A stretch of DNA of 64,000 nucleotides from Arenicola marina (Eukaryota > Annelida > Polychaeta > Arenicolidae). The stretch lies in contig OZ025261.1 of the NCBI GenBank assembly GCA_964019135.1, positions 33,744,738 to 33,808,737 on the forward strand. Reading direction: 5' to 3'. Below the pieces are notes generated by a model, which saw only the letters and a program-made list of their open reading frames with translations, made no database searches and was not told the origin of the DNA. Shown here one piece after another: positions 8,401-64,000 of the stretch (position 1 is the first letter of the stretch; each line of letters opens with the position of its first letter). A program made the position numbers and the translations under genes.

Positions 8401-11400
8401 AGAATGCTGCTGCGCCAAATATGACACAGCCAACCATGTTCATGAGCTTCTTGAAAATGCCCCGCTCCAGAGCCACGGACCTTCAAGCATAGAAAGTACT
8501 ACAGTAAATGATATGACAGGTCCTAACATGGTAGATGGATCTTACATGTCATGACTTTGATTCTCCAAGGATGTTTCACAGCATTATTCAGCCAGTGTAC
8601 ACAAAGCTGGACTAACGCATCTATCCATCCTATAGGATGTTACGGCCTCGTAAGCACTTGTCGCTGGATTATTTTGGGGCAGAGACTGCGCATAGTAAAG
8701 GTAAATTATCTCAATCTTCATGATGAACTTTTAGGGGTCACTTTCCAACTAAATTGTCAAATATCTTGTGAACCTCCTAGCCTAGGGACAACACCCCGAG
8801 CCAAATGGTGACTGGCAGCGCCCCCTACCTGACGAGTGCCTTCAGGACCTCACAGCCCAGGGACAACACCGCGAGCCAAATGGTGACTGTCAGCGCCCCC
8901 TACCTGACGAGTGCCTTCAGGACCTCCCAGCCCAGGGACAACACCCCGAGCCAAATGGTGACAGGCAGCGCCCCCTACTTGACGAGTGCCTTCAGGACCT
9001 CCCAGCCCAGGGACAACACCCCGCGCCAAATGGTGACAGGCAGCGCCCCCTACCTGACGAGTGCCTTCAGGACCTCCCAGCCCAGGGACAACACCCCGAG
9101 CCAAATGGTGACTGTCAGCGCCCCCTACCTGACGAGTGCCTTCAGGACCTCCCAGCCCAGGGACAACACCCCGAGCCAAATGGTGACTGTCAGCGCCCCC
9201 TACCTGACGAGTGCCTTCAGGACCTCCCAGCCCAAGGACAACACCCCGAGCCAAATGGTGACTGGCAGCGCCCCCTACCTGACGAGTGCCTTCAGGACCT
9301 CCCAGCCCAGGGACAACACCCCGAGCCAAATGGTGACAGGCAGCGCCCCCCACCTGACGAGTGCCTTCAGGACCTCCCAGCCCAGGGACAACACCCCGAG
9401 CCAAATGGTGACTGTCAGCGCCCCCTACCTGACGAGTGCCTTCAGGACCTTCCAGCCCAGGGACAACACCCCGAGCCAAATGGTGACTGTCAGCGCCCCC
9501 TACCTGACGAGTGCCTTCAGGACCTCCCAGCCCAGGGACAAAACCCCGAGCCAAATGGTGACTGTCAGCGCCCCCTACCTGACGAGTGCCTTCAGGACCT
9601 CCCAGCCTAGGGACAACACCCCGAGCCAAATGGTGACAGGCAGCGCCCCCTACCTGACGAGTGCCTTCAGGACCTCCCAGCCCAGGGACAACACCCCGAG
9701 CCAAATGGTGACTGTCAGCGCCCCCTACCTGACGAGTGCCTTCAGGACCTCACAGCCCAGGGACAACACCCCGAGCCAAATGGTGACAGGCAGCGCCCCC
9801 TACCTGACGAGTGCCTTCAGGACCTCCCAGCCCAGGGACAACACCCCGAGCCAAATGGTGACTGGCAGCGCCCCCTACCTGACGAGTGCCTTCAGGACCT
9901 CCCAGCCCAGGGACAACACCCCGAGCCAAATGGTGACTGTCAGCGCCCCCTACCTGACGAGTGCCTTCAGGACCTCCCAGCCCAGGGACAACACCCCGAG
10001 CTAAATGGTGACTGTCAGCGCCCCCTACCTGACGAATTCCTTCAGGACCTCCCAGCCCAGGGACAACACCCCGAGCCAAATGGTTACTGGCAGCGCCCCC
10101 TACCTGACGAGTGCCTTCAGGACCTCCAAGCCCAGGGACAACACCCCGAGCCAAATGGTGACTGGCAGCGCCCCCTACCTGACGAGTGTCTTCAGGACCT
10201 CACAGCCCAGGGACAACACCCCGAGCCAAATGGTGACTGTCAGCGCCCCCTACCTGACGAGTGCCTTCAGGACCTCACAGCCCAGGGACAACACCCCGAG
10301 CCAAATGGTGACAGGCAGCGCCCCCTACCTGACGAGTGCCTTCAGGACCTCCCAGCCCAGGGACAACACCCCGAGCCAAATGGTGACTGTCAGCGCCCCC
10401 TACCTGACGAGTGCCTTCAGGACCTCCCAGCCCAGGGACAACATCCCGAGCCAAATGGTGACTGGCAGCGCCCCCTACCTGACGAGTGCCTTCAGGACCT
10501 CCCAGCCCAGGGACAACACCTCGAGCCAAATGGTGACTGGCAGCGCCCCCTACCTGACGAATTCCTTCAGGACCTCCCCGCCCAGGGACAACACCCCGAG
10601 CCAAATGGTGACTGGCAGCGCCCCCTACCTGACGAGTGCCTTCAGGACCTCCCAGCCCAGGGACAACACCCCAAGCCAAATGGTGACTGGCAGCGCCCCC
10701 TACCTGACGAATTCCTTCAGGACCTCCCAGCCCAGGGACAACACCCCGAGCCAAATGGTTACTGGCAGCGCCCCCTACCTGACGAGTGCCTTCAGGACCT
10801 CCCAGCCCAGGGACAACACCCCGAGCCAAATGGTGACTGGCAGCGCCCCCTACCTGACGAGTGCTTTCAGGACCTCCCAGCCCAGGGACAACACCCCAAA
10901 CCAAATGGTGACAGGCAGCGCCCCCTACCTGACGAGTGTTTTCAGGACCTCACAGCCCAGGGACAACACCCCGAGCCAAATGGTGACTGTCAGCGCCCCC
11001 TACCTGACGAGTGCCTTCAGGACCTCCCAGCCCAGGGACAACACCCCGAGCCAAATGGTGACTGTCAGCGCCCCCTACCTGACGAGTGCCTTCAGGACCT
11101 CCCAGCCCAGGGACAACACCCCAAACCAAATGGTGACAGGCAGCGCCCCCTACCTGACGAGTGCCTTCAGGACCTCACAGCCCAGGGACAACACCCCGAG
11201 CCAAATGGTGACAGGCAGCGCCCCCTACCTGACGAGTGCCTTCAGGACCTCCCAGCCTAGGGACAAAACCCTGAGCCAAATGGTGACTGTCAGCGCCCCC
11301 TACCTGACGAGTGCCTTCAGGACCTCCCAGCCTAGGGACAACACCCCGAGCCAAATGGTGACTGGCAGCGCCCCCTACCTGACGAGTGCCTTCAGGACCT

Positions 11401-14400
11401 CACAGCCCAGGGACAACACCCCGAGCCAAATGGTGACTGTCAGCGCCCCCTACCTGACGAGTGCCTTCAGGACCTCCCAGCCCAGGGACAACACCCCAAG
11501 CCAAATGGTGACAGGCAGCGCCCCCTACCTGACGAGTGCCTTAAGGACCTCCCAGCCCAGGGACAACACCCCGAGCCAAATGGTGACTGTCAGCGCCCCC
11601 TACCTGACGAGTGCCTTCAGGACCTCACAGCCCAGGGACAACACCCCGAGCCAAATGGTGACTGTCAGCGCCCCCTACCTGACGAGTGCCTTCAGGACCT
11701 CCCAGCCCAGGGACAACACCCCAAGCCAAATGGTGACAGGCAGCGCCCCCTACCTGACGAGTGCCTTAAGGACCTCCCAGCCCAGGGACAACACCCCGAG
11801 CCAAATGGTGACTGTCAGCGCCCCCTACCTGACGAGTGCCTTCAGGACCTCACAGCCCAGGGACAACACCCCGAGCCAAATGGTGACTGTCAGCGCCCCC
11901 TACCTGACGAGTGCCTTCAGGACCTCCCAGCCCAGGGACAACACCCCAAGCCAAATGGTGACAGGCAGCGCCCCCTACCTGACGAGTGCCTTCAGGACCT
12001 CCCAGCCCAGGGACAACACCCCGAGCCAAATGGTGACTGTCAGCGCCCCCTACCTGACGAGTGCCTTCAGGACCTCACAGCCCAGGGACAACACCCCGAG
12101 CCAAATGGTGACTGTCAGCGCCCCCTACCTGACGAGTGCCTTCAGGACCTCCCAGCCCAGGGACAACACCCCGAGCCAAATGGTGACTGGCAGCGCCCCC
12201 TTCAGGAAGGAATCGTAGTCGTCTCGAGTGAAAGCTACAAACAAACGAGGTCATTACTATGTGACAACCATCAGTCATGAGCATTGATTAAGCACGTTTA
12301 TTAAAAGTGCGTACAAGTTTTACCGGTCCAAATAGGCAAAAGTTGCCAAAATCTTATGACTGACCGTAATTTAACGAGCTGTAATATAAGCGTTCGACAA
12401 TGAGTATCACTAAGCAACCATCTTGACGTACATGTATTATGCTCACAGACAATTTTATTCAAATTTACGATAGCAATCCAAAAATTCAGCCTTTACCTTT
12501 TAGAGCAAAACAATAACCACAAAGAAGACTTACTGATGTCGGACTCCACTCTCAGAGGCTTTGTCCTCACTTTGAGGTCAAACAGCTTGATGGTCCAGTA
12601 CACCAGGGCGCCGTATACCATGATGTTCAGCGCCCATTTGATTGGTCGCCAGAACTGACCAATCAAAGGATAGTGCTTGGCTTCTTCATCTTCTCCTAGG
12701 TAGCCGTAAAACAAACAGAAACACGAAAATAAAATGTGATAATTCATTTTATTGCACATTACAACAATACGTGAATGATATGAATTTTACTGGTAGGGTT
12801 CCATTTACATGACGTCATGAACAACAAACGAGTAGCCATTGAGCGACATGCACGCTGAAGTCTCATATGAATAGCAGGAAGCAGCCTTATGTAACATATC
12901 GACAGGATTGTGTAATCTTACAATGCGTTACGTATAACGGCCCCGGATAATTAAATATTAACGCACATATTGATCAGCGTAATGGCAAATTAGAAAACCC
13001 CCGTGTTTATAAATACTTAATCAGGTACCCCGACAACATAACCAGTGATATATGTTTCTAAAAATAGATCGTTGCATGAGCAGATTTAACGCATGCAATA
13101 GCCTAGATCATGCCAACACCGTTCGAAATCTCGCTAAATCTCGCTAGCAGTCTCGCCTGCGAACTCGCTCGTAGTCTAGCAAACCCTCGCTTGCAGTCTC
13201 GCTCGCAGTCTCGCTCGCAGTCTCGCATAGTCTCGCCACAGAACTCACTTGCCGTCTCGCACACAGGACATGGCTGATCTCGTGACGCTATCCGACCCCC
13301 CGCCCCTCACTCTCGGATAATCCCCGCAAACCGCTGTCGGCATTACCTTTCGGGCTTTGTCCGATCCATCTGCGAATGAAATTGTCATCGACCAAGGAAA
13401 ACGAGATGGCGACAGTCAGGAGGTTGAAGAAGTTGTAGTTTCCCGTCAGCATGATGAGAAACATCAAGAAACACTGGAAGGAGAAAGAAGAGGAAGGTGA
13501 GATTAGAAATAAATAGTCAGCTACATACTAGGTGTAAACCCGGTGTGAGTGCATCAGATTGACATCTGTACCAGTGTAAGAACATGCATACCGACAGAGG
13601 TGGAGGACGGGATAAGGGCGTGTGAACCCCGGCAGAGAAAGTCTTGAGTAATCTCTGTAGGTCATATCGCGATAATGGGGGAGGGTCAAGGTAAAAAGGA
13701 GCCATGTCTCCAGGAATAACAGGCATAGACATTAGCACACGCTACCTAATAGACCACGCAGATAGACGTACACCGCATAATAAATACAGCTAGACGCAGG
13801 CACATAGGGGTGGACGCCAATTTCGACCGCTAGAAGGCGCTGGGAGCGCAGTAAGAGGGACTTGACCTCAAATTGGACGCTACACGTAACCAGCGCATCA
13901 CGTGGTCTCTTACACCACAATTACATTAGAATTTAGGAAAATTCTTTTAATTCCATCGCTGACCACACCTACATACCCAGAATATGTCTCTTCCATCCCG
14001 GAAGAAGAACCCTTTAGAATTTTATACCAACACCCGACACGCCAGCGTCTCACTTTTAGAGCCAACATCCGGGTTTTTTGTTGCTCCATGTTGATGGCCC
14101 CGCCATTATCGATTGACGGTCCGCTGCCTGGCATGACGGACGGGGCGGGTCCCAAATCAATCATATTAAGTGACAGAGGATCCCCCGGTCTATCTGTCTG
14201 TCGGCAGCCAGGCGGTGAGACGGTGAGACGCGAGGCAGGGGCATCTCGGGTGATAACAATACAGGTAGGACAGGCTTAACAAACACAAGGGGCGCCCCAA
14301 CCCACGCCCCGTGAAGGCGGATAAAAGGGCAACGAAGCGGGGGGAGCGGTAGCTCCATACGACAACAAAAATCCAGGGTTTTGATAGATCTTGAGGGGGG

Positions 14401-20400: not shown

Positions 20401-23400
20401 CTTGAATACCTACTTGGTGGTCCCAGGCGATTATTTTACCGCGGAGGGTGTCGCCGTAAATTCCTTTAGCGGCTGGCCCTTGGCTATTGCAGTAAGTTAC
20501 AGCGAAGGATATGGCGACTAACAGCGACGCCAGAACTCCGTGTCACAGTAACAACTTTACTTCCAGACCAGGTCTCCAGCCGCCATGTCTGCCAAAAGCA
20601 GGCCGAGGTCAAGGTCACCGGGGAAGACGCCGGACATCCGGATCTCGTCCAGCGAAAGCGGAAGTCGCGCAGCTTCCGGAGCCAGTCGCACGCGCAGCCC
20701 CGCGGCGTCTGCTAAAAACCGGAACCGCTCTCCCCAGTCACGTGGCAAGTCAGCGGCCAGCTCCCGGATGTCCAGCTCGGGCGCCAAGACACCACTGTCG
20801 GCCAAGTCCAGGGGGAGTGGCAACGCCAGCCGGAAGAGCAGCGCCGTGGTCCGGAGAACGCGGATCCAGGCGGTGGAAATTGAGAGCCGCGGACTCACCT
20901 TTCTAGATCTGTCCGGACAGGGAATGACGGCAGTCGCTAGCACCACCTTCTTACGTAAGCACCTGGCAGGACTCCACAAAGCCTTCTTTTAGCTGTCTCT
21001 TTTCCACCAATTGTTTTATTATCTATATGATTATATGGTTAGACACGAGCCTGTCGTTAGTCTAACTTAGGTTTAACTTCCGCGTTTAAAATTCACGCAA
21101 TAGACGACCGCAGTAATGGAAGGTGGCTTTTCGAAGCTTCGATCAAAGTCACCGCTTTCATTATGGGTGGACTTTGATTGCTTAGTGACGGATACTGGCG
21201 AATCAGTACTAATGGCAAAAAATATGCGGAGGTCGTTTACAGAAGCTCACATTGTACTCATAGTGTAGCTTCCTTTACAATAATTGATATCGTAACTCCA
21301 CACTTTGAAGGTAGAATTAGGTCAACCCCTCTAGTCAAAACTATGTAAAATGTGCCTGGAATCTAGACAAATGCAACATTTCATTTCAGGTAAAGCGGTG
21401 GGAGAGCTGAATCTATCGAGTAACAACCTCCGACAGCTGCCTGGTGATGTCAGCAAACTAACCAACCTCTGCCACCTGGATATCAGTAAGAACGGGATCC
21501 GCTGCGGGCATCCCAAGGACTTCTCGGGTCTGCCTCTGGAGCTGGGTCAACTGGCCAACCTCACCGTGCTTTGTATCTCAGAGTGCAATTTACCCTTCAT
21601 CCCGCCAGCCATCTGGAAATGCCGCTCCCTCAGGGCCCTGGATATCAGCCGGAACAAGATCAACGTCCTGGCCCCGGATGTAGGCAATCTGAGCCAGTTG
21701 CGCCACTTGGATGCGCAGCAGACGAGTATCATGACACTACCGCCAGAGGTCGCCCTCTGTCAGGAGCTGGAGGAGATTCTTCTGTGGGGCAACGCCATTG
21801 AGAGTCTTCCGGAGACGCTGAGAGAGATCCCGAACCTCAGGGTTCTGGCTATCAACTACAAGAGCTTCAGCGCCGCCGTGGATGACTATCGGGATACGCT
21901 GATCCGGAAGGGCCAGATCCAGTCCGAACACATCCCGCCGGTGCTCTTCGACATCCCGGCACTGGCCAAACTGGACTTGGAGGACACCAAGCTGAACTTC
22001 CTTCCGGAGCGGTGCCACGGGAAGTACAAGGAAGTGTACCTCGGCAGGAACTTCTTCTATAAACTGCCGCGTATGGTGCTCCAGATCCCCACTCTAGAGA
22101 CGCTGGATATCTCGGAAAACAAACTGAGCGTCATTCCGGACGCCATCGATTCAATCTCCACCTTGAGGGCGCTGCGGCTGAACGATAACGACATCGAGAA
22201 GATTCCCCTGTCCATCGGCAACATGAAGCAGCTGCGGGAGCTGAACCTCGGAGGAAATAAAATCTCGGGCCTGCCGGAAGCGCTGGGACGACTGGAGAAT
22301 CTACAGAGTCTGCTTCTGGATCGAAATCAAATCCGGAACATCCCGGATTCGCTGAGCAACTTAGAGTGTCTTGAGACGCTGGATCTCACGGATAACCTGA
22401 TCGCATCCCTGCCGATCAGCTTCCACAAAATGGCTGCCTTGAAGACGGCCCACAGCTACCGCAAGCTGCACAAACACGGACTGTGGCTGCACAAGAACCC
22501 ACTGAGGAGCCCCCCGGAGGAGGTGTGGAAAACAGACGAACCGAAGGGCATCTTCGAGCACCTGCGGCGCCTGCAGATCCAGCGGACGGAAAACCTCCAA
22601 CGGCAAAAGCTGATCGTCTTGGGCGAGGTGCAGTGTGGGAAGACCAGCCTGGTGCACGCAATGACTGCCGGGAAGTCCCTCCTGACCCAGGCGACTGCGG
22701 ACAGCACGGCTCTGGTCGATTTCTTCGCCTGGAGGACCCAAAATGGCGTTGACCTGCTGGTTCATGACCTTGGCGGGGCGGACGCCTATCGGACGCCGAC
22801 GCAGCTGTATCTCGACCCCAAGGCCCTCTATCTCCTCGTCTACGACCACCGGAAGTACACCACACAAAACCACCAGGCGGCGCTCGGAGTGTGGTTGGAC
22901 ATGCTGCTGACGCATGCGCCGGGAGCCGTGGTGAAGATTGCCGGGACTCAGATCGACCAATGTTCAGAGGACTTCGCCCTGAAGATCAAGGATCAGGTGG
23001 AGGAGCAAGTTCAGCAGCAGATGGCGGAGCGAGCCGACAAGATCCAGCAGGAAGTGGTGCGCGTGGACGCCATGCTGCGTGACATCGAGGGCGGGAGGTC
23101 AGCGCAGGAGATTGAGCAACTCAGCCGGCAGAGGGCGCGGCTGGTGACTCTGGGCCAAACATCGCTGAGGCTGCAGAACGATATCTCCCTGGTGACGGCG
23201 GGAGAGGGGATCCAGGGCGTGCCGCAGCTGGTGAGCAGTCTAGAGGTGCTGGCGGTGGATTCCACCCTGTTCCCCCATGCACAGAGACAGGTCCCAGGGG
23301 TATGGGACAAATTCCGTCTCGCCCTGAAGAAGCGAAGGGATTTCTTCCTCACGCTAGACACGGTGTTGCAGACCGGTAAGCAGCAGTACGAGCTGACCAG

Positions 23401-38910: not shown

Positions 38911-38949
<39 letters not shown>

Positions 38950-50367: not shown

Positions 50368-50550
50368 AATAGCGCGAGTTTTGCTTGGCGTTAGGCATTT
50401 TATTGGCCCTTGATCAAGCTGTAGCAGCCCTTCATTTTCATTATCCGCCCTCGGCCTTGCGGCCTCGGGCCGATAATGAAAATTGGCGGGCTGCTACAGC
50501 TTGATGTCGGGCCAATAAAATTGCCTAACGCCCCGCAAACTCGCGCTATT
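50368..50550. mobile_element. Foldback / long inverted repeat element, ~183 bp
   Basis: The two arms pair over about 85 bp. Outer ends AATAGCGCGAG and CTCGCGCTATT are exact complements; inner parts such as AAGCTGTAGCAGCCC pair with GGGCTGCTACAGCTT. The centre is CGGCCTTGCGGCC. No coding capacity. Confidence 0.88.
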
Positions 50551-50565
50551 GTCATATTCAACATA

Positions 50566-50710
50566 TTTTGTTTATGCTTGACATTTAGTTCAGAAGGTCT
50601 GGAATGTGAGAGGTCAGTGGTTTGAGTCCAAGCCATAGCGAATTCCAAACTTCCTGGGCCAGTTTGTGACTCTTGACCATGTTGACAGCTTGATATCTGT
50701 GTACAGGGGT
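50566..50710 (+). repeat. Diverged SINE-like repeat, copy 1
   Basis: Shares GAATGTGAGAG, TCAGTGGTTTGAGTC (B-box-like) and CCAGTTTGTG with the copy at 51000-51130. Confidence 0.5.
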
Positions 50711-50999
50711 AGGTCCCAGGAGGATCTATAGATGGCCAGACTGAGAGATATCACATTGGTACTGATGGGAAAACCTGGGACCACTCTTGCAAATGGTCGC
50801 CTACTGGACCAGGTGCTACAAAGGATATGCTCAGATCTTTGCTTAGTTCGGGAAGATATAGTCCTTTGCATATTCCCTGGATGCCTGTAGGCACCAGAGG
50901 CTTAATACACATGCAGGGCATATTGGATTGACCACAAGGTTGCAGTCCAAGGAGAAAGGGTGGAATGTACAATCTCAACATAAATAGCTTATCATATAG

Positions 51000-51130
51000 G
51001 CACATTGCATTTGACATTTCACTCTGTAAGTCCTTGAATGTGAGAGATCAGGGGTTTGAGTCTGAGCCATGGCAGGGGCCAAAATTTGTGGGTCAGTTTG
51101 TGGCCTTTGATCATGTATGGTACCTGTGTT
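51000..51130 (+). repeat. Diverged SINE-like repeat, copy 2
   Basis: GAATGTGAGAGATCAGGGGT, TTTGAGTCTGAGCCATGG and GTCAGTTTGTGGC align with the copy at 50566. It lies in the NCAPH2 5' flank or first intron. Confidence 0.5.
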
Positions 51131-51412
51131 TATATGAGAAAAAAACCTTTTGCACACTGGCCAGGCTAGTACATCTCCGCTTGTCAAAGAAATGACTAAA
51201 CAAACCATTAGAGTCCTGAATCGAATAGAACTTGAAGCCTTAATACTTCAGTACTGGTTTGTTGCATATTTGTTGATGGGTAGTTGGTAGCCAAATCATA
51301 TCAGCTAACTATATACATTTTCTCAAATGCATATAAACATGCATCTATCAGTAAGAAATCTTCTAATTGTATACATATATATTTTGTATATGTTGTATTT
51401 TTCTCAGGAGTC

Positions 51413-51541
51413 ATGGTCCTCTCCAGTACTCAAGACGCTGATCTTGAGGCTAGATTTGGTCACCTGCTTCAGCCAATCAGGGACTTGACTAAAAATTGGG
51501 ATGTAGATATTGCCAGTCACTTAGAAGAATACATTGCAGAG
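51413..51541 (+). CDS. NCAPH2: NCAPH2 coding exon 1 (residues 1-43)
   Basis: The ATG lies 5 nt after an acceptor TTTTTCTCAG. It encodes [20 protein letters not shown] and [16 protein letters not shown], the CNDH2 N-terminal signature. Donor GTAAAT, phase 0. Confidence 0.93.
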
Positions 51542-54500
51542 GTAAATATGATTGTTGTTAAGTGTATCAACCATGCAAAGCATTTTTCAGAATATTAGTA
51601 CCACTGGTCTTTTTTTTTTTGTGTGAGGTCATGCAATTACAGCCCTGTGGAAGTAGATATATAAGTTGGCAATGCAGGAGCTTAGCATATATATACATAT
51701 ATATTTTGCAATTATGTGGAGATGTAAATAACAGGATGTATTGTGAAACAGGATGTGCATGTAGCAGTATGTTTCATGTCTGGCAGCTTGGAACTATTTC
51801 AATCACTTTCGATGGAGGTGCTACAACCTTGAATTTTGCTGAAGCAGCTCTCCTTATTCAGGGATCTGCCTGTGTCTATGGCAGAAAGGTATGTTCAAAG
51901 CTATCCCTGTTACCTATGTGTACCTTGTCTCATGTTCATTTAGATATTATTTCAAATCTTCTTTGTGGTACGTTAACCAATACATGTAGGTAAGTGGCAA
52001 GTTCAGCTGTTATTGACTCTGCTCTGCTAGGCCAGCCTAAGCGGCCGATTCATGATTTATGCCCTATCTGTGGAAATATCTGTCAGTGCAAGATAAAAAA
52101 ATAATGTCTTTCTTTGCAAAGAGCAGGGGGTAGCTTGCGTAGACCTAGCTTCTATTCTGTCTTTACCCTTTACATTGTCATGTCTTGACCTACAGAGTTA
52201 CAAGCATCCTACTTTAAAGTAACTGTAATAGGAAGAATAATGTTTGTATATGCAGGAGCCATATTAGAAACTAATAAATGCCATTATTCATTTCATCTTA
52301 CAGGTTTTGTAACCAACATGTTTCTTCATTGTAGGTTGAGTACTTGTACTCTCTCGTGTACCAGGTTCTGGACCTGCTGGCCAGCAAAAAGTAAGCTACT
52401 TTAGCCAATAGTGTCAACATCTGATCTAGCATAATAATATTTTATCGCCGTAAAGACGAGAATTTTAATCGCCGCGTAGGTGAAAACGAGCAACCAGATC
52501 TCATCTGGTGTTCAGGGCAGCGGCTAACTTACTTTGTGACACATTTTTAATAAAACCCCTATTTAACGGACCTCCATCGAACGACTACATGACGTCAACT
52601 AAGTGTTGTGCGTGACAATAAATTGACGTGCGGAGATTTGTTTGACATGGTCTTGTTTTGTTGAATTGTGTAGAAAGCAGCAGAAACAAACAGAGGAAGG
52701 TGGAGACGCAGAAAATGATCCAAATGGAAATCGAAGACATGAAGACGATGAGGTAAGTATGGTCACTGTCTCTATCAGTGTATGGTCACTGTCTCTATTA
52801 GTGTATGGTCACTGTCTCTGTCAGTGTATGGTCACTGTCTCTATTAGTGTATGGTCACTGTCTCTGTCAGTGTATGGTCACTGTCTCTATCAGTGTATGG
52901 TCACTGTCTCTATCAGTGTATGGTCACTGTCTCTGTCAGTGTATGGTCACTGTCTCTATCAGTGTATGGTCACTGTCTCTATCAGTGTATGGTCACTGTC
53001 TCTGTCAGTGTATGGTCACTGTCTCTGTCAGTGTATGGTCACTGTCTATCGGTGTATGGTCACTGTCTCTGTCAGTGTATGGTCACTGTCTCTATCAGTG
53101 TATGGTCACTGTCTCTGTCAGTGTATGGTCACTGTCTCGATCAGTGTATGGTCACTGTCTCTGTCAGTGTATGGTCACTGTCTCTATCAGTGTATGGTCA
53201 CTTTCTCTGTCAGTGTATGGTCACTGTCTCTGTCAGTGTTTGGTCACTGTCTCGATGTGTATGGTCACTGTCTCTATCAGTGTATGGTCACTGTCTCTAT
53301 CAGTGTATGGTCACCGTCTCTATCAGTGTATGGTCACTGTCTCTATCAGTGTATGGTCACTGTCTCTATCAGTGTATGGTCACTGTCTCTATCAGTGTAT
53401 GGTCACTGTCTCTATCAGTGTATGGTCACTGTCTCTGTCAGTGTATGGTCACTGTCTCTATCAGTGTATGGTCACTGTCTCTCTCAGTGTATGGTCACTG
53501 TCTCTATCAGTGTATGGTCACTGTCTCTATCAGTGTATGGTCACTGTCTCTATCAGTGTATGGTCACTGTCCCTACCAGTGTATGGTCACCGTCTCTATC
53601 AGTGTATGGTCACTGTCTCTGTCAGTGTATGGTCACTGTCTCTGTCAGTGTATGGTCACTGTCTATCAGTGTATGGTCACTGTCTCTGTCAGTGTATGGT
53701 CACTGTCTCTATCAGTGTATGGTTACTGTCTCTGTCAGTGTATGGTCACTGTCTCGATCAGTGTATGGTCACTGTCTCTGTCAGTGTATGGTCACTGTCT
53801 CTATCAGTGTATGGTCACTGTCTCTATCAGTGTATGGTCACTGTCTATCAGTGTATGGTCACTGTCTCTATCAGTGTATGGTCAACATTTAACCTTTAGT
53901 ACAAAATACATTAACATTTCTCGCTTGGCTAGAAGACCTCAAATATGACAGGCAATAAAGCAGTTAATATCATTATTTGACGCGTGGAATTTCCATCAAG
54001 CATGCAAAGCAAAACCTAAAAAAAAACAAGCGTCACATGCAAACAATAAAAAAAAAGAGATAATGCGATGCATGTGTAACTATTCCCTCTGAGCCATGCT
54101 CGTTGTGTAATTTAGATTGGTGCTTCATTTCGACAAAACAACTCGGAAAACCGTGAATTCGTTCAATTTAACACCTCAGTGGTGAGACAATGGAGGCGCG
54201 CTGGTTGCCTGAGTTTAGACCATTTCAAAAGACTCCCTGTTCTATGTATGGCTGTTCTAAGATACCCCTGTCCGGCCATTCCGAGATACTCCCTGCGCAG
54301 TGTCCAAAGTGTTTTACGTTAACTTTTGGAATATATTTCCTCTAGTTCCTCACACTGGATGACCTCAAAACACACAAGAACATTGGTCTACGGAGCGACG
54401 AGGGAAACAGTGAAGAGGTATGACTTCCATTCGAGCTTACACTTATCCTATGTGCCTATTTATGGCACTGCCTTCATGGTATACTTGCTATTTTGAAGTC

Positions 54501-57500
54501 TATTACCGGCTTAAGCTCGAACTAACTGCATGTATATTTATATATATATAGAGAGAGAAATTGTCGTATACATATCAATTGCTTATCAAGACTGTGTACT
54601 TGAATACAGTTAGTGAAAGAAATTTTGAAAGCGATCTGATTACGAACAAAATGGAACTCCCTTGCATTTTCCTTCTCTATGACTGTTCCAGGGAGTGCAT
54701 GTTATGCCCAAGACTCCGTTGGCCCTGGTGCACAAAGACGACGCGGAGAAGGGGGAAAATCCATTGTTAAGGTGGGTCATTTGAAATCATACTAGAAAGA
54801 AATTGATATGAATTCTTGTTGTTATTGTACACTGGAATCAATTATCGGTAATGTTTCTCAAAGGGCACAGCTTATTATTATCGGGTATAGCTGGCCGGGT
54901 TATCCCAGATGTGGGTAAAGCTCGCTTAAAGCGCTGATTCATCTACCATTTGGGTTAATTATCGAGAAGTTGTATAGTGTACATTGGATACATACTAAAA
55001 ACATTTTCAGCAGGAACGTACGATGCTAATTTAAGATGTAGGTAAGATTGATCTGGTTTTCTGTGCACAAAATTAGCTTATTTTCGCCTTTTCAGCCACA
55101 AGGGAGAGGTTCTGGGCAGTCGACAAGACTTCAAGATGAACACGTGCGCAGTGCACCCATCTGGGATTCAGCTCCTCGACTTGTCGCACCTCAACCTGCT
55201 GGAGGTGTCCTTCCTCAACCTGGTCACATCCACGCCCTACCCTACACGTGAGTCTGTCCACACCCCTCCCTACACCCTACACGTGAGTGTCCACACCCCA
55301 CCCTACACTCTACCCTACACGTGAGTCTGTCCACACCTCACCCTACACCCTACCCTACACGTGAGTCTGACCACACCCCGCCCTACACCCCACCCTACAC
55401 CGTACCCTACACGTGAGTCTATGATAGTATCCGCACCCTACTCGTTCCGTGACCTTAGACGCTTTCCTGGTTTGTCTTCCAGGGCCAGGTGGCGCTGTGA
55501 CCACAGACACAGGACCCCCAGGCGAGGACCCACTACCCCAGCCAGAGGCACAAGCAATGGACATCAGCCGTGAGTACCCAGAGAAAAAATCAACATTTAT
55601 TCTTGATAATGTATACAGGGACCGCCCGTAGTTAGTAGTTTCGTACTCGACTGAAGATCCATGGTTTGCGGGCTGGTCATTTATCATGTCATGTCCCAGG
55701 GTCCCTTGGCCTGATTTCGCCCATTTGAGCACGAAAGTGGCATAAAACACCCAATCGATCCCCCTATTATGTGTGAGATTGTCAGCTTACTGGTATTTAC
55801 TGATTTTAATTTAAAATTACGAAATTCCACTTCTGGTGGCTGCCAGAGAAGGATGCTCAGATTCAGAACTGAAGGACAACAACAACCCGGAAGTGAACCA
55901 ATGCAGCGTAATATTGATGTGGAAAACCGATATTTAATCTGTTGATTCCAAGATTCGAGGGTGCTGAATTTATAATTGATTTTGATTTTTAAAGTGAACG
56001 AAATATAAATGGCGGCCACGAAAACAACCTTTGCTATGCCATACTGAATCATTTGATACAATGCTTTAGCTTTAAATACCAACTATCGCTCTCCCACCTT
56101 TCAGAGATATCAGCCCATTGTATGCATGAACGTCTGTGTAAAATGTTCCGTGTTTTTCTCCACCTAGTGGATGACCACGACAATATCTTTGACGCTCATG
56201 AACCTGACGATTTGCCAGCAGACGATCAAGGTCAAGCCATAGAGGAGGACGTGGGAAAGGTAACTTCGATTTGCATTATTGCTGAATCGGTCTGCGATCC
56301 AAATATTTTTCGATGCCCCTAATTTGGCCAAAGCTGCACGCTTGGCCAAAGCTGCACGCTTGGCCAAAGCTGCACGCGTGGTCAAAGCTGCACGCGTGGC
56401 CAAAGCTGCACGCTTAGCCAAAGCTGCACGTGTGGCCAAAGCTGCACGCTTGGCCAAAGCTGCACGCTTGGCCAAAGCTGCACGCGTGGCTAAAGCTGCA
56501 CGCTTAGCCAAAGCTGCACGCGTGGCCAAAGCTGCACGCGTGGCCAAAGCTGCACGCGTGGCCAAAGCTGCACGCGTGGCCAAAGCTGCACGCTTAGCCA
56601 AAGCTGCACGCGTGGCCAAAGCTGCACACTTGGCCAAAGCTGCACGCTTGGCCAAAGCTGCACGCGTGGCTAAAGCTGCACGCTTAGCCAAAGCTGCACG
56701 CGTGGCCGAAGCTGCACGCATGGCCAAAGCTGCACGCGTGGCCAAAGCTGCACGCGTGGCCAAAGCTGCATGACACGAAGTCTGGGGTAAGGGTCCATTC
56801 TCCAATCCTATCTTCGCTTACAGACAAGAATAGGATATGGAAGATCTTGCACGTATAACAATATTCAGGGATGGATATTCGCCCCTCTTGTTAATTTCTT
56901 GCAGGCCTCGTGTACGTGGCTCCTCCCTCGGTCCTCCCGATGGACTTTCATAGGTTAAATTATCCGGCTGGCACCGACCAACCAACCCCGTCCGTTACTT
57001 TTGCAGGACTCACAGGACGGACTCCGACGGCCGGAGCGAACAGCACGGAGACCCATGCAGCCAGTCCCCTCTAAACCCGTAAGTACCCACAGCCTGGAGA
57101 CCCATGCACCCAGTCCCCTCTAAATCCGTAAGTACCCACAGCCCGGAGACCCAGCACCCAGTCCCCTCTAAACCCGTAAGTACCCACAGCCCAGGGACCC
57201 AGCACCCAGTCCCCTCTAAACCCGTAGGTACCCACAGCCCGGAGACCCATGCAGCCAGTCCCCTCTAAACCCGTAAGTACCCACAGCCCTGAAACCCATG
57301 CAGCCAGTCCCCTCTAAACCCGTAAGTACCCATAGCCCAGGGACCCAGCACACAGTCCCCTCTAAACCCGTAAGTACCCACAGCCCGGAGACCCAGCACC
57401 CAGTCCCCTCTAAACCCGTAAGTACCCACAGCCCGGAAACCCATGCAGCCAGTCCCCTCTAAACCCGTAAGTACCCACAGCCCAGGGACCCAGCACCCAG

Positions 57501-60500
57501 TCCCCTCTAAACCCGTAAGTACCCACAGCCCAGGGACCCAGCACCCAGTCCCCTCTAAACCCGTAAGTACCCACAGCCCGGAGACCCATGCAGCCAGTCC
57601 CCTCTAAACCCGTAAGTACCCACAGCCCGGAGACCCAGCACCCAGTCCCCTCTAAACCCGTAAGTACCCACAGCCCGGAGACCCATGCAGCCAGTCCCCT
57701 CTAAATCCGTAAGTACCCACAGCCCGGAAACCCATGCAGCCAGTCCCCTCTAAACCCGTAAGTACCCACAGCCCAGGGATCCAGCACCCAGTCCCCTCTA
57801 AACCCGTAAGTACCCACAGCCCGGAGACCCATGCAGCCAGTCCCCTCTAAACCCGTAAGTACCCACAGCCCGGAGACCCATGCAGCCAGTCCCCTCTAAA
57901 CCCGTAAGTACCCACAGCCCGGAAACCCATGCAGCCAGTCCCCTCTAAACCCGTAAGTACCCACAGCCCAGGGACCCAGCACCCAGTCCCATCTAAACCC
58001 GTAAGTACCGACAGCCCGGAGACCCATGCACCCAGTCCCCTCTAAACCCGTAAGTACCCACAGCCCGGAGACCCATGCAGCCAGTCCCCTCTAAACCCGT
58101 AAGTACCCACAGCCCGGAAACCCATGCAGCCAGTCCCCTCTAAACCCGTAAGTACCCACAGCCCAGGGACCCAGCACCCAGTCCCCTCTAAACCCGTAAG
58201 TACCCACAGCCCGGAGACCCAGCACCCAGTCCCCTCTAAACCTGTCAGTACCCACAGCCCGGAGACCCATGCAGCCAGTCCCCTCTAAACCCGTAAGTAC
58301 CCACAGCCCAGGGACCCAGCACCCAGTCCCCTCTAAACCCGTAAGTACCCACAGCCCGGAGACCCATGCAGCCAGTCCCCTCTAAACCCGTAAGTACCCA
58401 CAGCCCGGAGACCCAGCACCCAGTCCCCTCTAAACCCGTAAGTACCCACAGCCCGGAGACCCAGCACCCAGTCCCCTCTAAACCCGTAAGTACCCACAGC
58501 CCGGAGACCCAGCACCCAGTCCCCTCTAAACCCGTCAGTACCCACAGCCCGGAGACCCATGCAGCCACTTCCCGCTAAACCCGTAAGTACCCACAGCCCA
58601 GAAACCCATGCAGCCAGTCCCCTCTAAACCCGTAAGTACCCACAGCCCGGAGACCCATGCACCCAGTCCCCTCTAAACCCGTACGTACCCACAGCCCTGA
58701 GACCCAGCACCCAGTCCCCTCTAAACCCGTAAGTACCCACAGCCCGGAGACCCATGCACCCAGTCCCCTCTAAACCCGTAAGTACCCACAGCCCGGAGAC
58801 CCATGCAGCCACTTACCTCTAAACCCGTAAGTACCCACAGCCCGGAGACCCAGCACCCAGTCCCCTCTAAACCCGTAAGTACCCACAGCCCGGAGACCCA
58901 GCACCCAGTCCCCTCTAAACCCGTCAGTACCCACAGCCCGGAGACCCATGCAGCCACTTCCCGCTAAACCCGTAAGTACCCACAGCCCGGAGACCCAGCA
59001 CCCAGTCCCCTCTAAACCCGTAAGTACCCACAGCCCGGAGACCCATGCAGCCAGTCCCCTCTAAACCCGTCAGTACCCACAGCCCGGAGACCCATGCAGC
59101 CACTTCCCGCTAAACCCGTAAGTACCCACAGCCCAGAAACCCATGCAGCCAGTCCCCTCTAAACCCGTAAGTACCCACAGCCCGGAGACCCATGCACCCA
59201 GTCCCCTCTAAACCCGTACGTACCCACAGCCCTGAGACCCAGCACCCAGTCCCCTCTAAACCCGTAAGTACCCACAGCCCAGGGACCCAGCACCCAGTCC
59301 CCTCTAAACCCGTCAGTACCCACAGCCCGGAGACCCATGCAGCCACTTCCCGCTAAACCCGTAAGTACCCACAGCCCAGGGACCCAGCACCCAGTCCCCT
59401 CTAAACCCGTAAGTACCCACAGCCCGGAGACCCATGCAGCCAGTCCCCTCTAAACCCGTAAGTACCCACAGCCCGGAGACCCAGCACCCAGTCCCCTCTA
59501 AACCCGTCAGTACCCACAGCCCGGAGACCCATGCAGCCACTTCCCGCTAAACCCGTAAGTACCCACAGCCCGGAGACCCATGCAGCCAGTCCCCTCTAAA
59601 CCCGTAAGTACCCACAGCCCGGAGACCCATGCAGCCAGTCCCCTCTAAACCCGTAAGTACCCACAGCCCGGAGACCCAGCACCCAGTCCCCTCTAAACCC
59701 GTAAGTACCCACAGCCTGGAGACCCATGCACCCAGTCACCTCTAAACCCGTAAGTACCCACAGCCCGGAGACCCAGCACCCAGTCCCCTCTAAACCCGTA
59801 AGTACCCACAGCCCGGAGACCCAGCACCCAGTCCCCTCTAAACCCGTAAGTACCCACAGCCTGGAGACCCATGCACCCAGTCCCCTCTAAACCCGTAAGT
59901 ACCCACAGCCTGGAGACCCAGCACCCAGTCCCCTCTAAACCCGTAAGTACCCACAGCCCGGAGACCCATGCAGCCAGTCCCCTCTAAACCCGTAAGTACC
60001 CACAGCCCGGAGACCCAGCACCCTGTCCCCTCTAAACCCGTAAGTGCCGTAAGTAAGTCATTGGGTTTAGACATACAGACGAAGAGACCGAGCGATAAAT
60101 AGGAAAAAGCACCATTGGCGCAGTGTTCTGGACAATTTTTTTTGTATCTTGAATTGTTCTTTAGAGCTTAATACAATATTTCTACGGTAATGGAATGCTA
60201 TGTATAAAATTAATGAGCTTGTCTACTTTACATCAACGCGATATAAATTGTCATCCGCATAGCTAACAAAATCAAATGTTAAAAATATTTTATCAATATG
60301 GTGGCGACATTTCGCTACGACCAAAATAATACCCAGGAAGCATTGCACATGCACAAGTATTGACCTTGGTTTTCTGGACCTAATCTATGGTCTGTAAGGT
60401 CAATGTGTTATTGTCGTAGTTGCTCCGGGTCCTTCCCATGGGATTATTGGAGGAGCGTCTCTATATCACTCGATCAGCTGTTGCAAATCAACAGGTCGTG

Positions 60501-61559
60501 GGTTCGAACCTTGCTACCTACATCCAATCCCATTCCATTGTCTGGGGATGTTTATTGGCCCAATATGACCTTCATATATGCACCAAAACGGCCTAAAAGC
60601 CAAACTTTCGTGTCCTTTTCGTGGCCTGCAGATAGTGGATCATTGGCTGTCACTGGATCCACACAAAGCGAACGCCGTCACGGAGAAACCCTTCAAAAAG
60701 CGTGAGTCACCGTGTTTTTTATAAGCGGGTCCAGTGGTGCCCGAACCCTGTGACATCCGCGGGCCTATCCCGCGTGCCGTAGCCTTCATAGCGCATAAGG
60801 CCTAAAGGTTTTCCTTTTTTTTCATACAGAATTCAGTTATTCATTGACCTGCAATTAAAAATTGGCAATGTATGTATCTCTTATTAAAATTTAAAAACTG
60901 CGCACTATGCAAAACTTGTATGATTTTATGTAATGTCATGTGGGCCTTAAGGCCTTTCAAGACTAATAAAAAACCAATCAATTAATGAAGAGTATTATGA
61001 GTTTGGAGTCCACGATGTTTTAGCATGGACTTGATCAATTCTAAATCTTTGCTTCATGTTTTAGTTTGGTCGATGTACATTTTTTCAAGTTTACTGTTCA
61101 TAACATTCCAGAGAAAACTTTCCGCTTGCCTGCAAGCCTTGAATCAGAGGCGACTAGAAAAAGAAAACGGAAACAGCATGTGAACGAAAGTCGACCCCTT
61201 CTACCCATCAGCGAGTTCTGTGCGCAGGCTTGTGAGTCTGTTTGATGACTTCTCTCAACACGTGCAGCCGTGAACGCCCGGGCGAATGTTAACTATTAAT
61301 AACATAACGTCTAACGCTCTAAAGTTCCACATTATATATTAAAAAAAGATCACCGAATTGGTGCATGTCAACATACAAAGCGGATCCATGGTTCCCCTCT
61401 GACGACTATCTGTTTTTTCGGTGTTTAGACAGCGCCACGTCCTGTCAGCGGTTGCCACGCAACCCTCTGGCGGCGCCGTCCTTCCCGGAGTTCGAGCACC
61501 TGTTCTGGAGCGAGCAGCGACGGCGGCAGGCGCGGGTCAGGGAAGAGAAGAAGTGGATG
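51413..61559 (+). CDS. NCAPH2: Condensin-2 complex subunit H2 (kleisin), 5' thirteen coding exons, partial
   Basis: NCAPH2 is the kleisin of condensin II, bridging SMC2/SMC4 and the HEAT subunits in the nucleus for chromosome condensation. Exons: 51413-51541, 51787-51888, 52335-52390, 52674-52752, 54346-54417, 54692-54771, 55096-55247, 55483-55569, 56168-56259, 57007-57078, 60632-60701, 61112-61231, 61429-61559. Phases agree throughout, giving 1242 nt or 414 residues; human NCAPH2 has about 605, so about 190 residues lie beyond the window. Signatures are [20 protein letters not shown] at the start, [12 protein letters not shown] near 65, [15 protein letters not shown] near 80, FLTLDD near 125, MNTCAVHP near 190, and SLDP...KPFKK near 325. 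An acceptor (TTCTCAG) just before the ATG means an unlocated non-coding exon lies upstream. At least four introns start with minisatellites. Confidence 0.93.
51542..51786 (+). other. NCAPH2 intron 1
   Basis: Short intron, nothing notable; T-rich tract near 51610. Confidence 0.8.
51787..51888 (+). CDS. NCAPH2: NCAPH2 exon 2 (residues 44-77)
   Basis: Acceptor CATGTCTGGCAG, donor GTATGT, phase 0 to 0. It encodes [20 protein letters not shown] then [11 protein letters not shown], matching [18 protein letters not shown] in human. Confidence 0.95.
51889..52334 (+). other. NCAPH2 intron 2
   Basis: Contains a diverged plus-oriented fragment of the common SINE body at about 52060-52205 (CTTTGCAAAGAGCAGGGGGT). 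Otherwise nothing is seen. Confidence 0.6.
52335..52390 (+). CDS. NCAPH2: NCAPH2 exon 3 (residues 78-95)
   Basis: Encodes [18 protein letters not shown], matching [18 protein letters not shown] in human. Donor GTAAGC, phase 2. Confidence 0.95.
52674..52752 (+). CDS. NCAPH2: NCAPH2 exon 4 (residues 96-122)
   Basis: Acceptor GAATTGTGTAG, phase 2 to 0, donor GAG|GTAAGT. Encodes a charged linker [19 protein letters not shown]. Family similarity is weak here, as expected of the variable linker; frame and splice sites support it. The donor is the start of the 23-bp array. Confidence 0.8.
52753..53890. repeat. 23-bp minisatellite starting at the NCAPH2 exon 4 donor (~49 copies)
   Basis: The unit holds TATGGTCACTGTCTCTATCAG plus TG. 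The first unit overlaps the donor itself (GTAAGTATGGTCACTG). Copies alternate TCTCTATCAG and TCTCTGTCAG. No unit has a plus-strand stop, so all three frames stay open for about 365-416 codons, one of them continuous with exon 4. Confidence 0.95.
53891..54345 (+). other. Rest of NCAPH2 intron 4
   Basis: Non-coding, two A-rich runs near 54020-54060. Nothing else is recognised. Confidence 0.7.
54346..54417 (+). CDS. NCAPH2: NCAPH2 exon 5 (residues 123-146)
   Basis: Acceptor TATTTCCTCTAG, donor GTATGA, phase 0 to 0. It encodes [19 protein letters not shown], matching FLSLDDFPDSRTNVDL in human. Confidence 0.9.
54692..54771 (+). CDS. NCAPH2: NCAPH2 exon 6 (residues 147-172)
   Basis: Acceptor GACTGTTCCAG, donor GTGGGT, phase 0 to 2. 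It encodes [20 protein letters not shown] then PLL, matching IPLLPMALVAPDEMEKNNNPL in human. Confidence 0.9.
54772..55095 (+). other. NCAPH2 intron 6
   Basis: Non-coding, unremarkable; ends in CGCCTTTTCAG. Confidence 0.8.
55096..55247 (+). CDS. NCAPH2: NCAPH2 exon 7 (residues 173-223)
   Basis: Phase 2 to 1. It encodes [20 protein letters not shown] then PSGIQLLDL, matching [21 protein letters not shown] in human. The exon ends ACCCTACAC|GTGAGT-like (CCTACAC|GTGAGTCTG), and this border is repeated downstream. Confidence 0.95.
55238..55422. repeat. ~35-50-bp tandem repeat of NCAPH2 exon 7 end plus donor (5 donors)
   Basis: TACACGTGAGT occurs five times (donor G at about 55248, 55283, 55320, 55361, 55411), each preceded by CCCTACAC-type exon sequence. 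Spacers contain CCACACC and CCCTACACC. It is a young or small version of the larger arrays. Confidence 0.9.
55483..55569 (+). CDS. NCAPH2: NCAPH2 exon 8 (residues 224-252)
   Basis: Acceptor TTTGTCTTCCAG, donor GTGAGTACC, phase 1 to 1. Encodes a proline/glycine-rich linker ending [11 protein letters not shown], like QPMEVSV in human. Moderate support. Confidence 0.78.
55570..56167 (+). other. NCAPH2 intron 8
   Basis: No feature recognised beyond ordinary intron sequence. Confidence 0.7.
56168..56259 (+). CDS. NCAPH2: NCAPH2 exon 9 (residues 253-283)
   Basis: Acceptor TTTTTCTCCACCTAG, donor GTAACT, phase 1 to 0. Encodes the acidic linker [20 protein letters not shown]. This resembles the acidic middle of vertebrate NCAPH2 in composition only. 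Confidence 0.75.
56322..56772. repeat. 18-bp minisatellite in NCAPH2 intron 9 (~25 copies)
   Basis: The unit GGCCAAAGCTGCACGCGT (variants CTTGGCC, CTTAGCC) starts about 62 bp after the exon 9 donor. In one plus frame it reads ([12 protein letters not shown])n. The period of three codons keeps frames open on both strands. Confidence 0.97.
56773..57006 (+). other. Rest of NCAPH2 intron 9
   Basis: Unremarkable; ends in ACTTTTGCAG. Confidence 0.8.
57007..57078 (+). CDS. NCAPH2: NCAPH2 exon 10 (residues 284-307)
   Basis: Acceptor CCGTTACTTTTGCAG, donor CCC|GTAAGTACC, phase 0 to 0. It encodes a basic linker ([18 protein letters not shown]). The last ~35 nt and the donor are the founder of the downstream array. 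Confidence 0.85.
57045..60045. repeat. 47/49-bp minisatellite made of NCAPH2 exon 10 end plus donor (~60 copies)
   Basis: Each unit contains CCAGTCCCCTCTAAACCC|GT and AAGTACCCACAGCCCGGAGA, then CCCATGCAG (49-bp form) or CCCAGCAC (47-bp form). Nearly all keep a consensus GTAAGTACC donor; a minority read GTCAGT, GTACGT or GTAGGT. Read through the first donor, the frame hits TAA at the end of the second unit (CCC CTC TAA), so only the first donor keeps the protein. Confidence 0.96.
60046..60631 (+). other. Rest of NCAPH2 intron 10
   Basis: It contains a SINE relic around 60450-60515 with a clear B box (GGGTTCGAACC). Otherwise ordinary intron. Confidence 0.6.
60632..60701 (+). CDS. NCAPH2: NCAPH2 exon 11 (residues 308-330)
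   Basis: Acceptor GTGGCCTGCAG, donor GTGAGTC, phase 0 to 1. It encodes [20 protein letters not shown] then K, matching DPWQSLDPF...KPFKKG in human. Confidence 0.92.
60702..61111 (+). other. NCAPH2 intron 11
   Basis: It contains a LINE/SINE tail-like string near 60945-60985 (GGGCCTTAAGGCCTTTCAAG followed by an A-rich end). No gene. Confidence 0.5.
61112..61231 (+). CDS. NCAPH2: NCAPH2 exon 12 (residues 331-370)
   Basis: Phase 1 to 1. It encodes [20 protein letters not shown] then [12 protein letters not shown], matching VPPCVEEALGQKRKRKGAAKL and FHQWYLAAY in human. The KRKRK cluster is a likely nuclear localisation signal. Confidence 0.9.
61429..61559 (+). CDS. NCAPH2: NCAPH2 exon 13 (residues 371-414)
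   Basis: Acceptor TCGGTGTTTAG, donor ATG|GTGAGC, phase 1 to 0. It encodes [20 protein letters not shown] then REEKKWM, matching GPSFADMEVLYWTHVKEQLE in human. The next exon is beyond the window. Confidence 0.92.
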
Positions 61560-64000
61560 GTGAGCCACGTGACATCAAGTCAGACCCTAGGCTGAGTCAC
61601 GTGTAACAGTTGTCAAATCAGGCCTTAGGCTGAGTCACGTGTAACAGTTGTCAAGTCAGACCTTAGGCTGAGTCACGTGTAACAGTTGTCAAGTCAGGCC
61701 CTAGGTTGAGTCACGTGTAAGAGTTGTCAAGTCAGGCCCTAGGTTGAGTCACGTGTAACAGTTGTCAAGTCAGACCTTAGGCTGAGTCACGTGTAACAGT
61801 TGTCAAGTCAGACCTTAGGCTGAGTCACGTGTAACAGTTGTCAAGTCAGACCTTAGGCTGAGTCACGTGTAACAGTTGTCAAGTCAGGCCTTAGGCTGAG
61901 TCACGTGTAACAGTTGTCAAGTCAGGCCTTAGGCTGAGTCACGTGTAACAGTTGTCAAGTCAGACCTTAGGCTGAGTCACGTGTAACAGTTGTCAAGTCA
62001 GGCCCTCGGTTGAGTCACGTGTAACAGTTGTCAAGTCAGGCCCTAGGTTGAGTCACGTGTAACAGTTGTCAAGTCAGACCTTAGGCTGAGTCACGTGTAA
62101 CAGTTGTCAAGTCAGGCCCTCGGTTGAGTCACGTGTAACAGTTGTCAAGTCGGGCCCTAGGTTGAGTCACATGTAACAGTTGTCAAGTCAGGCCTTAGGT
62201 TGAGTCACGTGTACCAGCTGTCAAGTCAGGCCTTAGGTTGAGTCACGTGTACCAGCTGTCAAGTCAGGCCTTAGGCTGAGTCACGTGTAACAGTTGTCAA
62301 GTCAGGCCCTCGGTTGAGTCACGTGTAACAGTTGTCAAGTCAGGCCCTAGGTTGAGTCACGTGTAACAGTTGTCAAGTCAGACCTTAGGCTGAGTCACGT
62401 GTAACAGTTGTTAAGTCAGGCCTTAGGCTGAGTCACGTATAACAGTTGTCAAGTCCGACCTTAGGCTGAGTCACGTGTAAAAGTTGTCAAGTTAGACCTT
62501 AGGCTGAGTCACGTGTAACAGTTGTCAAGTCAGACCTTAGGCTGAGTCACGTGTAACAGTTGTCAAGTCAGGCCTTAGGCTGAGTCACGTGTAACAGTTG
62601 TCAAGTCAGGCCTTAGGCTGAGTCACGTGTAACAGTTGTCAAGTGAGACCTTAGGCTGAGTCACGTGTAACAGTTGTCAAGTCAGGCCTTAGGCTGAGTC
62701 ACGTGTAACAGTTGTCAAGTCAGACCTTAGGCTGAGTCACGTGTAACAGTTGTCAAGTCAGACCTTAGGCTGAGTCACGTGTAACAGTTGTCAAGTCAGA
62801 CCTTAGGCTGAGTCACGTGTAACAGTTGTCAAGTCAGACCTTAGGCTGAGTCACGTGTAACAGTTGTCAAGTCAGGCCTTAGGCTGAGTCACATGTAACA
62901 GTTGGCAAGTCAGGCCTTAGGTTGAGTCACGTGTAACAGTTGTCAAGTCAGACCTTAGGCTGAGTCACGTGTAACAGCTGTCAAGTCAGGCCCTAGGCTG
63001 AGTCACGTGTAACAGTTGTCAAGTCAGACCTTAGGCTGAGTCACGTGTAACAGTTGTCAAGTCAGGCCTTAGGCTGAGTCACGTGTAACAGTTGTCAAGT
63101 CAGACCTTAGGTTGAGTCACGTGTACCAGTTGTCAAGTCAGGCCCTAGGTTGAGTCACGTGTAACAGTTGTCAAGTCAGGCCCTAAGTTGAGTCACGTGT
63201 AACAGTTGTCAAGTCAGACCTTAGGCTGAGTCACGTGTAACAGTTGTCAAGTCAGGCCCTAAGTTGAGTCACGTGTAACAGTTGTCAAGTCAGACCTTAG
63301 GCTGAGTCACGTGTAACAGTTGTCAAGTCAGGTCCTCGGTTGAGTCACGTGTAACAGTTGTCCAGTCAGACCTTAGGTTGAGTCACGTGTAATAGTTGTC
63401 AAGTCAGACCTGAGGCTGAGTCACGTGTGACAGTTGTCAAGTCAGACCTTAGGCTGAGTCACGTGTAACAGTTGTCAAGTCAGACCTTAGGTTGAGTCAC
63501 GTGTAACAGTTGTCAAGTCAGACCTTAGGCTGAGTCACGTGTAACAGTTGTCAAGTCAGGCCCTAGGTTGAGTCACGTGTACCAGTTGTCAAGTCAGGCC
63601 CTAGGTTGAGTCACGTGTAACAGTTGTCAAGTCAGGCCCTAAGTTGAGTCACGTGTAACAGTTGTCAAGTCAGACCTTAGGCTGAGTCACGTGTAACAGT
63701 TGTCAAGTCAGGCCCTCGGTTGAGTCACGTGTAACAGTTGTCCAGTCAGGCCCTAGGTTGAGTCACGTGTAACAGTTGTCAAGTCAGACCTTAGGCTGAG
63801 TCACGTGTAACAGTTGTCAAGTCAGGCCCTAGGTTGACTCACGTGTAACAGTTGTCAAGTCAGACCTTAGGTTGAGTCACGTGTAACAGTTGTCAAGTCA
63901 GACCTTAGGTTGAGTCACGTGTAACAGTTGTTAAGTCAGGCTTTAGGCTGAGTCACATGTTGTCAAGTCAGGCCCTAGGTTGAGTCACATGTTGTCAAGT
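61560..64000. repeat. 38-bp minisatellite starting at the NCAPH2 exon 13 donor (~63 copies, runs off the edge)
   Basis: The intron begins GTGAGCCACGTGACATCAAG; each later unit begins CTGAGTCACGTGTAACAGTT and continues GTCAAGTCAGGCCTTAGG. The first unit is thus the donor, but in later units the donor GT has become CT or TT, so the site is not repeated. Every unit carries TGAGTCACGTG, an AP-1-like TGAGTCA overlapping an E-box CACGTG. Confidence 0.95.

Follow-up and report, generated by a model that had tools for sequence, protein, structure and literature searches.

Why should unrelated minisatellites begin again and again at the 5′ splice sites of two neighbouring genes? The question is raised by a stretch of 64,000 nucleotides of the annelid Arenicola marina (GenBank assembly GCA_964019135.1, contig OZ025261.1, positions 33,744,738 to 33,808,737 of the forward strand), hereafter the window. 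Six tandem arrays in it begin at, or no more than 4 bp from, a 5′ splice site (donor), namely donors 5 and 10 of LMF2 and donors 4, 7, 9 and 12 of NCAPH2. These arrays probably belong with the exon-intron border minisatellites known from amphioxus as "mirages"; they would have been duplicated at the border, would then have grown into the intron and would be tolerated through their exon-proximal copy.

The two genes diverge from each other, with starts 5.3 kb apart. LMF2 lies on the minus strand and has 17 coding exons, which encode 687 amino acids (aa) plus a stop, with no internal stops. Its draft translation matches the Pfam family LMF1 (2.2e-58), and a PDB search with it found no match. NCAPH2, on the plus strand, also has 17 coding exons, 12 of them inside the window, and encodes 572 aa plus a stop; its draft translation matches the Pfam family CNDH2_N (2.4e-48) and, in PDB, the condensin-2 H2 chain 9f5w_H (2.7e-67). 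The exon numbers of the initial annotation are upheld for LMF2 exons 5 and 10 and NCAPH2 exons 4 and 7, but its NCAPH2 exons 10 and 13 become exons 9 and 12. Together with the arrays detected by Tandem Repeats Finder (TRF), the gene models confirm that the six arrays are placed at donors, as listed below.

2191-46113, minus strand: LMF2 coding extent, 17 exons (frame-open model, Pfam).
12129-12234, minus strand: LMF2 exon 10, donor at 12129 (gene model).
8772-12201, minus strand: array A, 75-bp unit, 45.7 copies, spans the LMF2 exon 10 donor (TRF).
27918-28114, minus strand: LMF2 exon 5, donor at 27918 (gene model).
27273-27966, minus strand: array B, 64-bp unit, 10.9 copies, spans the LMF2 exon 5 donor (TRF).
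51413-64000, plus strand: NCAPH2 coding extent within the window, 12 of 17 exons (frame-consistent model, Pfam, PDB).
52674-52752, plus strand: NCAPH2 exon 4 (gene model).
52757-53884, plus strand: array D, 23-bp unit, 49.4 copies, after NCAPH2 exon 4 (TRF).
55096-55247, plus strand: NCAPH2 exon 7 (gene model).
55240-55460, plus strand: array G, units of about 35-50 bp, at the NCAPH2 exon 7 donor (extent by eye; TRF core 55274-55412).
57007-57078, plus strand: NCAPH2 exon 9 (gene model).
57040-60045, plus strand: array E, 48/49-bp unit, 61.9 copies, spans the NCAPH2 exon 9 donor (TRF).
61429-61559, plus strand: NCAPH2 exon 12 (gene model).
61575-64000, running on to 64005, plus strand: array F, 38-bp unit, about 64 copies, follows the NCAPH2 exon 12 donor (TRF).
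8252-8360, minus strand: short AT-rich array that starts 20 bp past the LMF2 exon 11 donor, abutting and not spanning it (TRF).

The units of the six arrays measure 23-75 bp and are repeated 3 to 64 times. Apart from the TRF boundaries, the point at which homology to the unit starts was measured relative to the exon end. In four of the six arrays, as had been proposed, the unit includes the exon end, the GT and the start of the intron, with homology reaching 39-73 bp into the exon. It starts at -73 in A, whose unit consists of 73 exon bp plus GT, at -49 in B, at -41 in G and at -39 in E, whose unit holds 39 exon bp. A unit that spans the border with its splice site, as in mirages, is found in these four and in the arrays of NCAPH2 exons 15 and 16 described below. 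Array D, which begins at +4 in the intron, leaves the donor outside its unit, and F reaches the border only via a degenerate first unit from +1. By homology, the arrays begin at or within 4 bp of the donor; TRF places the start of F at +15. What the arrays share is position and not sequence, again as proposed, since 15 pairwise tests found no kinship among the six unit consensuses (lowest value 4 of 200 shuffles, for G and F, uncorrected). No consistent trend in polarity (sign of an active end) was found along the six arrays, the last third showing clearly the highest variation in two or three of them and the lowest in one. Part of array E found no match in a phage collection, a result that is uninformative.

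The arrays also copy the splice sites themselves. Counting the true donor in each case, A contains 44 donors that score like it, B contains eight, G has five identical CTACAC/GTGAGT sites, and E has 52 donors equal to the true one; in D and F, the sole donor of that strength is the true one. None of the 124 downstream GT sites above the score threshold in five donor arrays (a threshold that varied from 5 to 8 per array) keeps the reading frame open, nor does any of 99 upstream acceptor copies. As none of these 223 extra copies keeps the frame, normal LMF2 and NCAPH2 need the copy next to the exon.

The pile-up of array edges near the donors of LMF2 and NCAPH2 exceeds chance. In the window, 6 of 28 donors and none of the 27 acceptors are crossed by an array or have one no more than 20 bp away, while random placement of the 19 arrays of at least 90 bp yields means of 1.0 donors and 0.87 acceptors and reaches six donors with P = 0.0002. 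The 32 introns of both genes hold 22 arrays, which make up 31.2 of 69.6 kb. Seven of the 22 start no more than 26 bp from a donor, where 0.92 are expected, a number reached in 0 of 20000 simulations (run with a hand-set extent for array G); one ends within 26 bp of an acceptor, for which the expectation is likewise 0.92 (P 0.62).

According to the initial annotation, arrays never begin at 3′ splice sites. This is true inside the window (0/27), but a survey to which 100 kb were added on each side (264 kb in all, with 65 arrays of at least 90 bp covering 79,347 of 264,000 bp) shows such an array in NCAPH2 itself:

65961-71023 (window coordinates), plus strand: NCAPH2 exon 15 acceptor array, 46-bp unit, about 5 kb, ending at the exon, which lies 7 kb past the window.

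The exon 15 acceptor sits in the last of the 105-110 units of this array, within which the 25-bp acceptor context is found 64 times in identical form, counting the true one. With this array and its donor arrays, the same gene bears border arrays of both kinds. Farther downstream, the donor of NCAPH2 exon 16 has a short array whose unit homology crosses the border, and an 8-kb array with a 28/56-bp unit (72041-80198, window coordinates) ends 36 bp before the exon 16 acceptor. Donor arrays also accompany predicted exons near 90.5 and 95.7 kb (window coordinates), which have no Pfam match and were left uncounted.

The effect is broad, as had been surmised, for it is also seen in unrelated genes of the same genome. 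Independent exons were picked by a genome-wide Pfam search for mitochondrial carriers, a single protein family, which gave 75 matches. From these, 56 stretches were chosen by hand, blind to repeats (40 mostly short open frames, then 16 others), and splice sites were called by eye and motif. In the first 40 stretches, 6 of 33 donors and 3 of 41 acceptors have an array edge no farther than 25 bp away or an array running across them. Edges pile up on both sides of the introns: nine at 74 splice sites, against 0.6 predicted from the density at 26-350 bp (eight edges). In all 56 stretches, the counts are 7/39 donors and 3/52 acceptors (Fisher 0.092). An excess of edges over the density of the intron interior is therefore upheld, but not an excess of donors over acceptors. 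Several of these exons share a gene (for instance, L035, L042 and L043) and are not fully independent. The last 16 stretches were counted by hand, with 1/6 donors (L063, L066, L068, L069, L072 and L075) and 0/11 acceptors; five paralogues among them (L067, L073, L074, L076 and L077) were counted once, L066 is without an acceptor call, and at L072 an array 26-46 bp away was left out of the acceptor count. L063 has only a GC-type candidate donor. L072 is a terminal exon and L066 possibly another, and dropping both gives 7/37 donors. L036 stands outside the count of seven, at 29 bp by TRF, although its homology reaches -6.

Carrier genes also have arrays at more than one kind of site. Acceptor arrays occur in L035, L042 and L043, and in L042 one exon is flanked by arrays on both sides, with three copies at its acceptor and eight at its donor. 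Homology crosses the border at the donors of L042 and L069 and at the acceptors of L035 and L042, and the unit homology of the L033 and L036 donor arrays covers 3-6 exon bases. In L022, L038 and a five-member paralogous group, arrays start within about 50 bp of a stop codon, the one in L038 starting within the coding part and extending past the stop. The five-member group (L067, L073, L074, L076 and L077, positions 675-695) consists of terminal exons with a shared 38-bp array just before the stop, which varies from 4.0 to 6.0 copies among the loci of this one assembly.

How might such arrays arise? In the mirage account, tandem duplication would first affect a short piece of DNA that straddles or adjoins an exon border. 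Unequal exchange or slippage would then expand the array into the intron, and the copies would become homogenised. This growth would be tolerated because the copy next to the exon (at a donor the first, at an acceptor the last) would still splice. Selection, in turn, would purge arrays inside exons, and, if it does so, edges are expected to collect where coding ends: at donors, acceptors and stop codons. No targeting of donors is required for this; a modest donor preference may result from extra downstream donors being better tolerated than extra upstream acceptors. A roughly threefold donor bias is possible, though not established in the independent sample. It is also conceivable, if rather doubtful, that borders, and donors above all, are true hot spots of array birth, with about one donor in 5-6 carrying an array, roughly three times the acceptor rate.

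Several observations weigh against the mirage account. Uniform birth and selection alone fail to predict edges 1-25 bp inside introns, such as those of D, F, L030, L043 and L047. In the flanks of the window, the exons seen of what we take to be two other genes, MOB and NRM, have no array of at least 90 bp within 25 bp. Arrays do not cover the border more often than the intron interior: measured without TRF in the carrier sample, their cover includes the first 36 intron bp at 4/33 donors and 4/41 acceptors, and positions 120-156 bp away at 6/33 on the donor side and 3/41 on the acceptor side, while border-spanning windows are covered at 1/33 donors and 3/41 acceptors and mid-exon ones at 0/41. 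At 120-156 bp, however, five of the six covered donor-side positions and two of the three acceptor-side ones come from arrays whose start is at most 29 bp from the border; since most of this cover is due to border-near arrays, the excess is one of edges. Finally, three tandem strong donors (AGGTAAGT) occur 3844 times genome-wide and the reversed pattern 2525 times, only about a 1.5-fold difference, in a test that is weak either way because hits overlap and cluster within arrays; in masked local DNA, the single strong-donor motif is not commoner than its reverse (5 vs 8).

The initial annotation suggested a mechanism aimed at donors, with R-loops among its examples. Under donor-targeted mutagenesis of this sort, arrays would be seeded at 5′ splice sites, whether through R-loops, U1 or the nascent transcript, and this would suit the 8/32 donors against 1/32 acceptors of LMF2 and NCAPH2 (array G counted, at 26 bp by TRF). 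Pooling with the carriers gives 15/71 against 4/84 (Fisher 0.0026), in a comparison where the two genes had been picked for their donor arrays, whereas the independent sample yields p = 0.092. The nontemplate GC skew of the six arrays takes both signs (A +0.24, B +0.34, D +0.03, G -0.44, E -0.43, F +0.13), which leaves the R-loop idea without support, and the weak genome-wide test with tandem donors adds little. Given the acceptor arrays (NCAPH2 exon 15, L035, L042 and L043) and those near stop codons (L022, L038 and the five paralogues), targeting of donors only is rejected as stated, and donor-directed seeding of any of these kinds seems unlikely.

Encroachment, by contrast, places no special event at the border: arrays would arise anywhere in introns, and deletions would eat the unique DNA until splice signals halt the edge. 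Abutting arrays that begin +1 to +23 past donors (D, F, L057, L030, LMF2 exon 11, L043 and L047) or end 7-36 bp before acceptors (L043, L024 and NCAPH2 exon 16) have the expected look. Nevertheless, this process cannot yield units that contain exon bases, such as those of A, B, E, G, L042, L069 and three acceptor arrays, and we regard it as a somewhat doubtful explanation. That the arrays are functional, for instance in tuning splicing through decoy or backup sites, is very improbable. Splice motifs do deviate less among copies than the rest of the unit (means of 0.2% vs 3.0% in A, 2.3% vs 4.9% in E and 2.9% vs 4.1% in the acceptor array), but these differences hang on few variable positions, all extra copies tested break the frame, and D and F lack a copy as strong as the true donor. 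Mere chance might bring some arrays to donors in a genome so rich in repeats, where those of at least 90 bp fill 79.3 of the 264 kb around the window. This is hardly credible, being already disfavoured by the random placement in the window, the two-gene simulation and the carrier edges.

Some further observations concern the surroundings. An uninterrupted frame of 974 aa (21335-24259, plus strand), with leucine-rich repeats, a Roc domain and a below-cut-off match to COR-A, is nested in LMF2 intron 7 on the opposite strand. A 200-N assembly gap (31883-32082) directly adjoins a 3.3-kb array (32083-35401) and may hide its true left edge. In the flanks (window coordinates), one exon of the MOB-family gene is present twice, as diverged tandem copies that lie some 200 bp from each other (-90548 and -90342) and may be alternative exons. 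A 13.3-kb array of about 403 copies of a 33-bp unit extends from -23223 to -9940 (in L014, L005 and L004). Read by eye, its consensus matches the unit at -57396 to -57075 once rotated and reverse-complemented, and the 40-bp units at 144230 and 149896 stand in much the same relation, each being nearly the reverse complement of the other. Thus, one unit recurs at separate loci in opposite orientation.

How do these arrays compare with known systems? Amphioxus mirages (Adh3, BflGb6, BflGb9, PGBD5 and troponin C) have the same border-spanning units and copied splice sites, at both 5′ and 3′ borders. They are described at both borders in globins and Adh3, with splicing reported as regular, by RT-PCR for the globins (PMC3087553). 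The amphioxus Adh border report mentioned in the initial annotation does exist, as Canestro et al. 2002 on Adh3, cited in PMC3087553. Mirage units range from 10-72 bp in Adh3 to 150-160 bp in BflGb6 (PMC3087553, PMC3902484), and the latter has six and three units in two haplotypes (PMC3087553). PGBD5 and troponin C are further cases (PMC3902484), and tandem repeats are mentioned in amphioxus huntingtin, in a source that does not use the word mirage (PMC2206037). In contrast, the largest arrays described here have 62 units (donor) and 105-110 units (acceptor) and are 3-5 kb long, six arrays lie within one 64-kb window, and D and F start just inside the intron without a strong donor copy. The Rogers model of intron gain by tandem duplication of AG/GT sites, cited in PMC3087553, likewise involves duplication including splice signals, but no new intron is seen here, as the arrays sit in introns of two known genes. 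Among the matches listed in the open-licence literature on amphioxus minisatellites and tandem repeats, no title or abstract opening mentions a genome-wide count of mirages. As far as the literature searched shows, what is new is thus large members of the known mirage kind, with up to 62 donor-bearing units and no extra splice-site copy among 223 that keeps the frame, and a first rough frequency.

Introns with 44 and 52 equally strong donors, and one with 64 exact acceptor contexts, serve as an experiment of nature on how splice sites are selected, in which normal transcripts would mean that the exon-proximal site prevails through its position rather than its sequence. If borders were indeed hot spots of array birth, a large share of introns would have been built by copying splice borders, and the genome would offer a natural test of how the spliceosome chooses among dozens of near-identical sites. 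Border arrays have been proposed as a source of new introns for amphioxus globins. If the rates sampled here hold, such arrays would shape intron length throughout the genome of A. marina and would be a plausible source of new introns.

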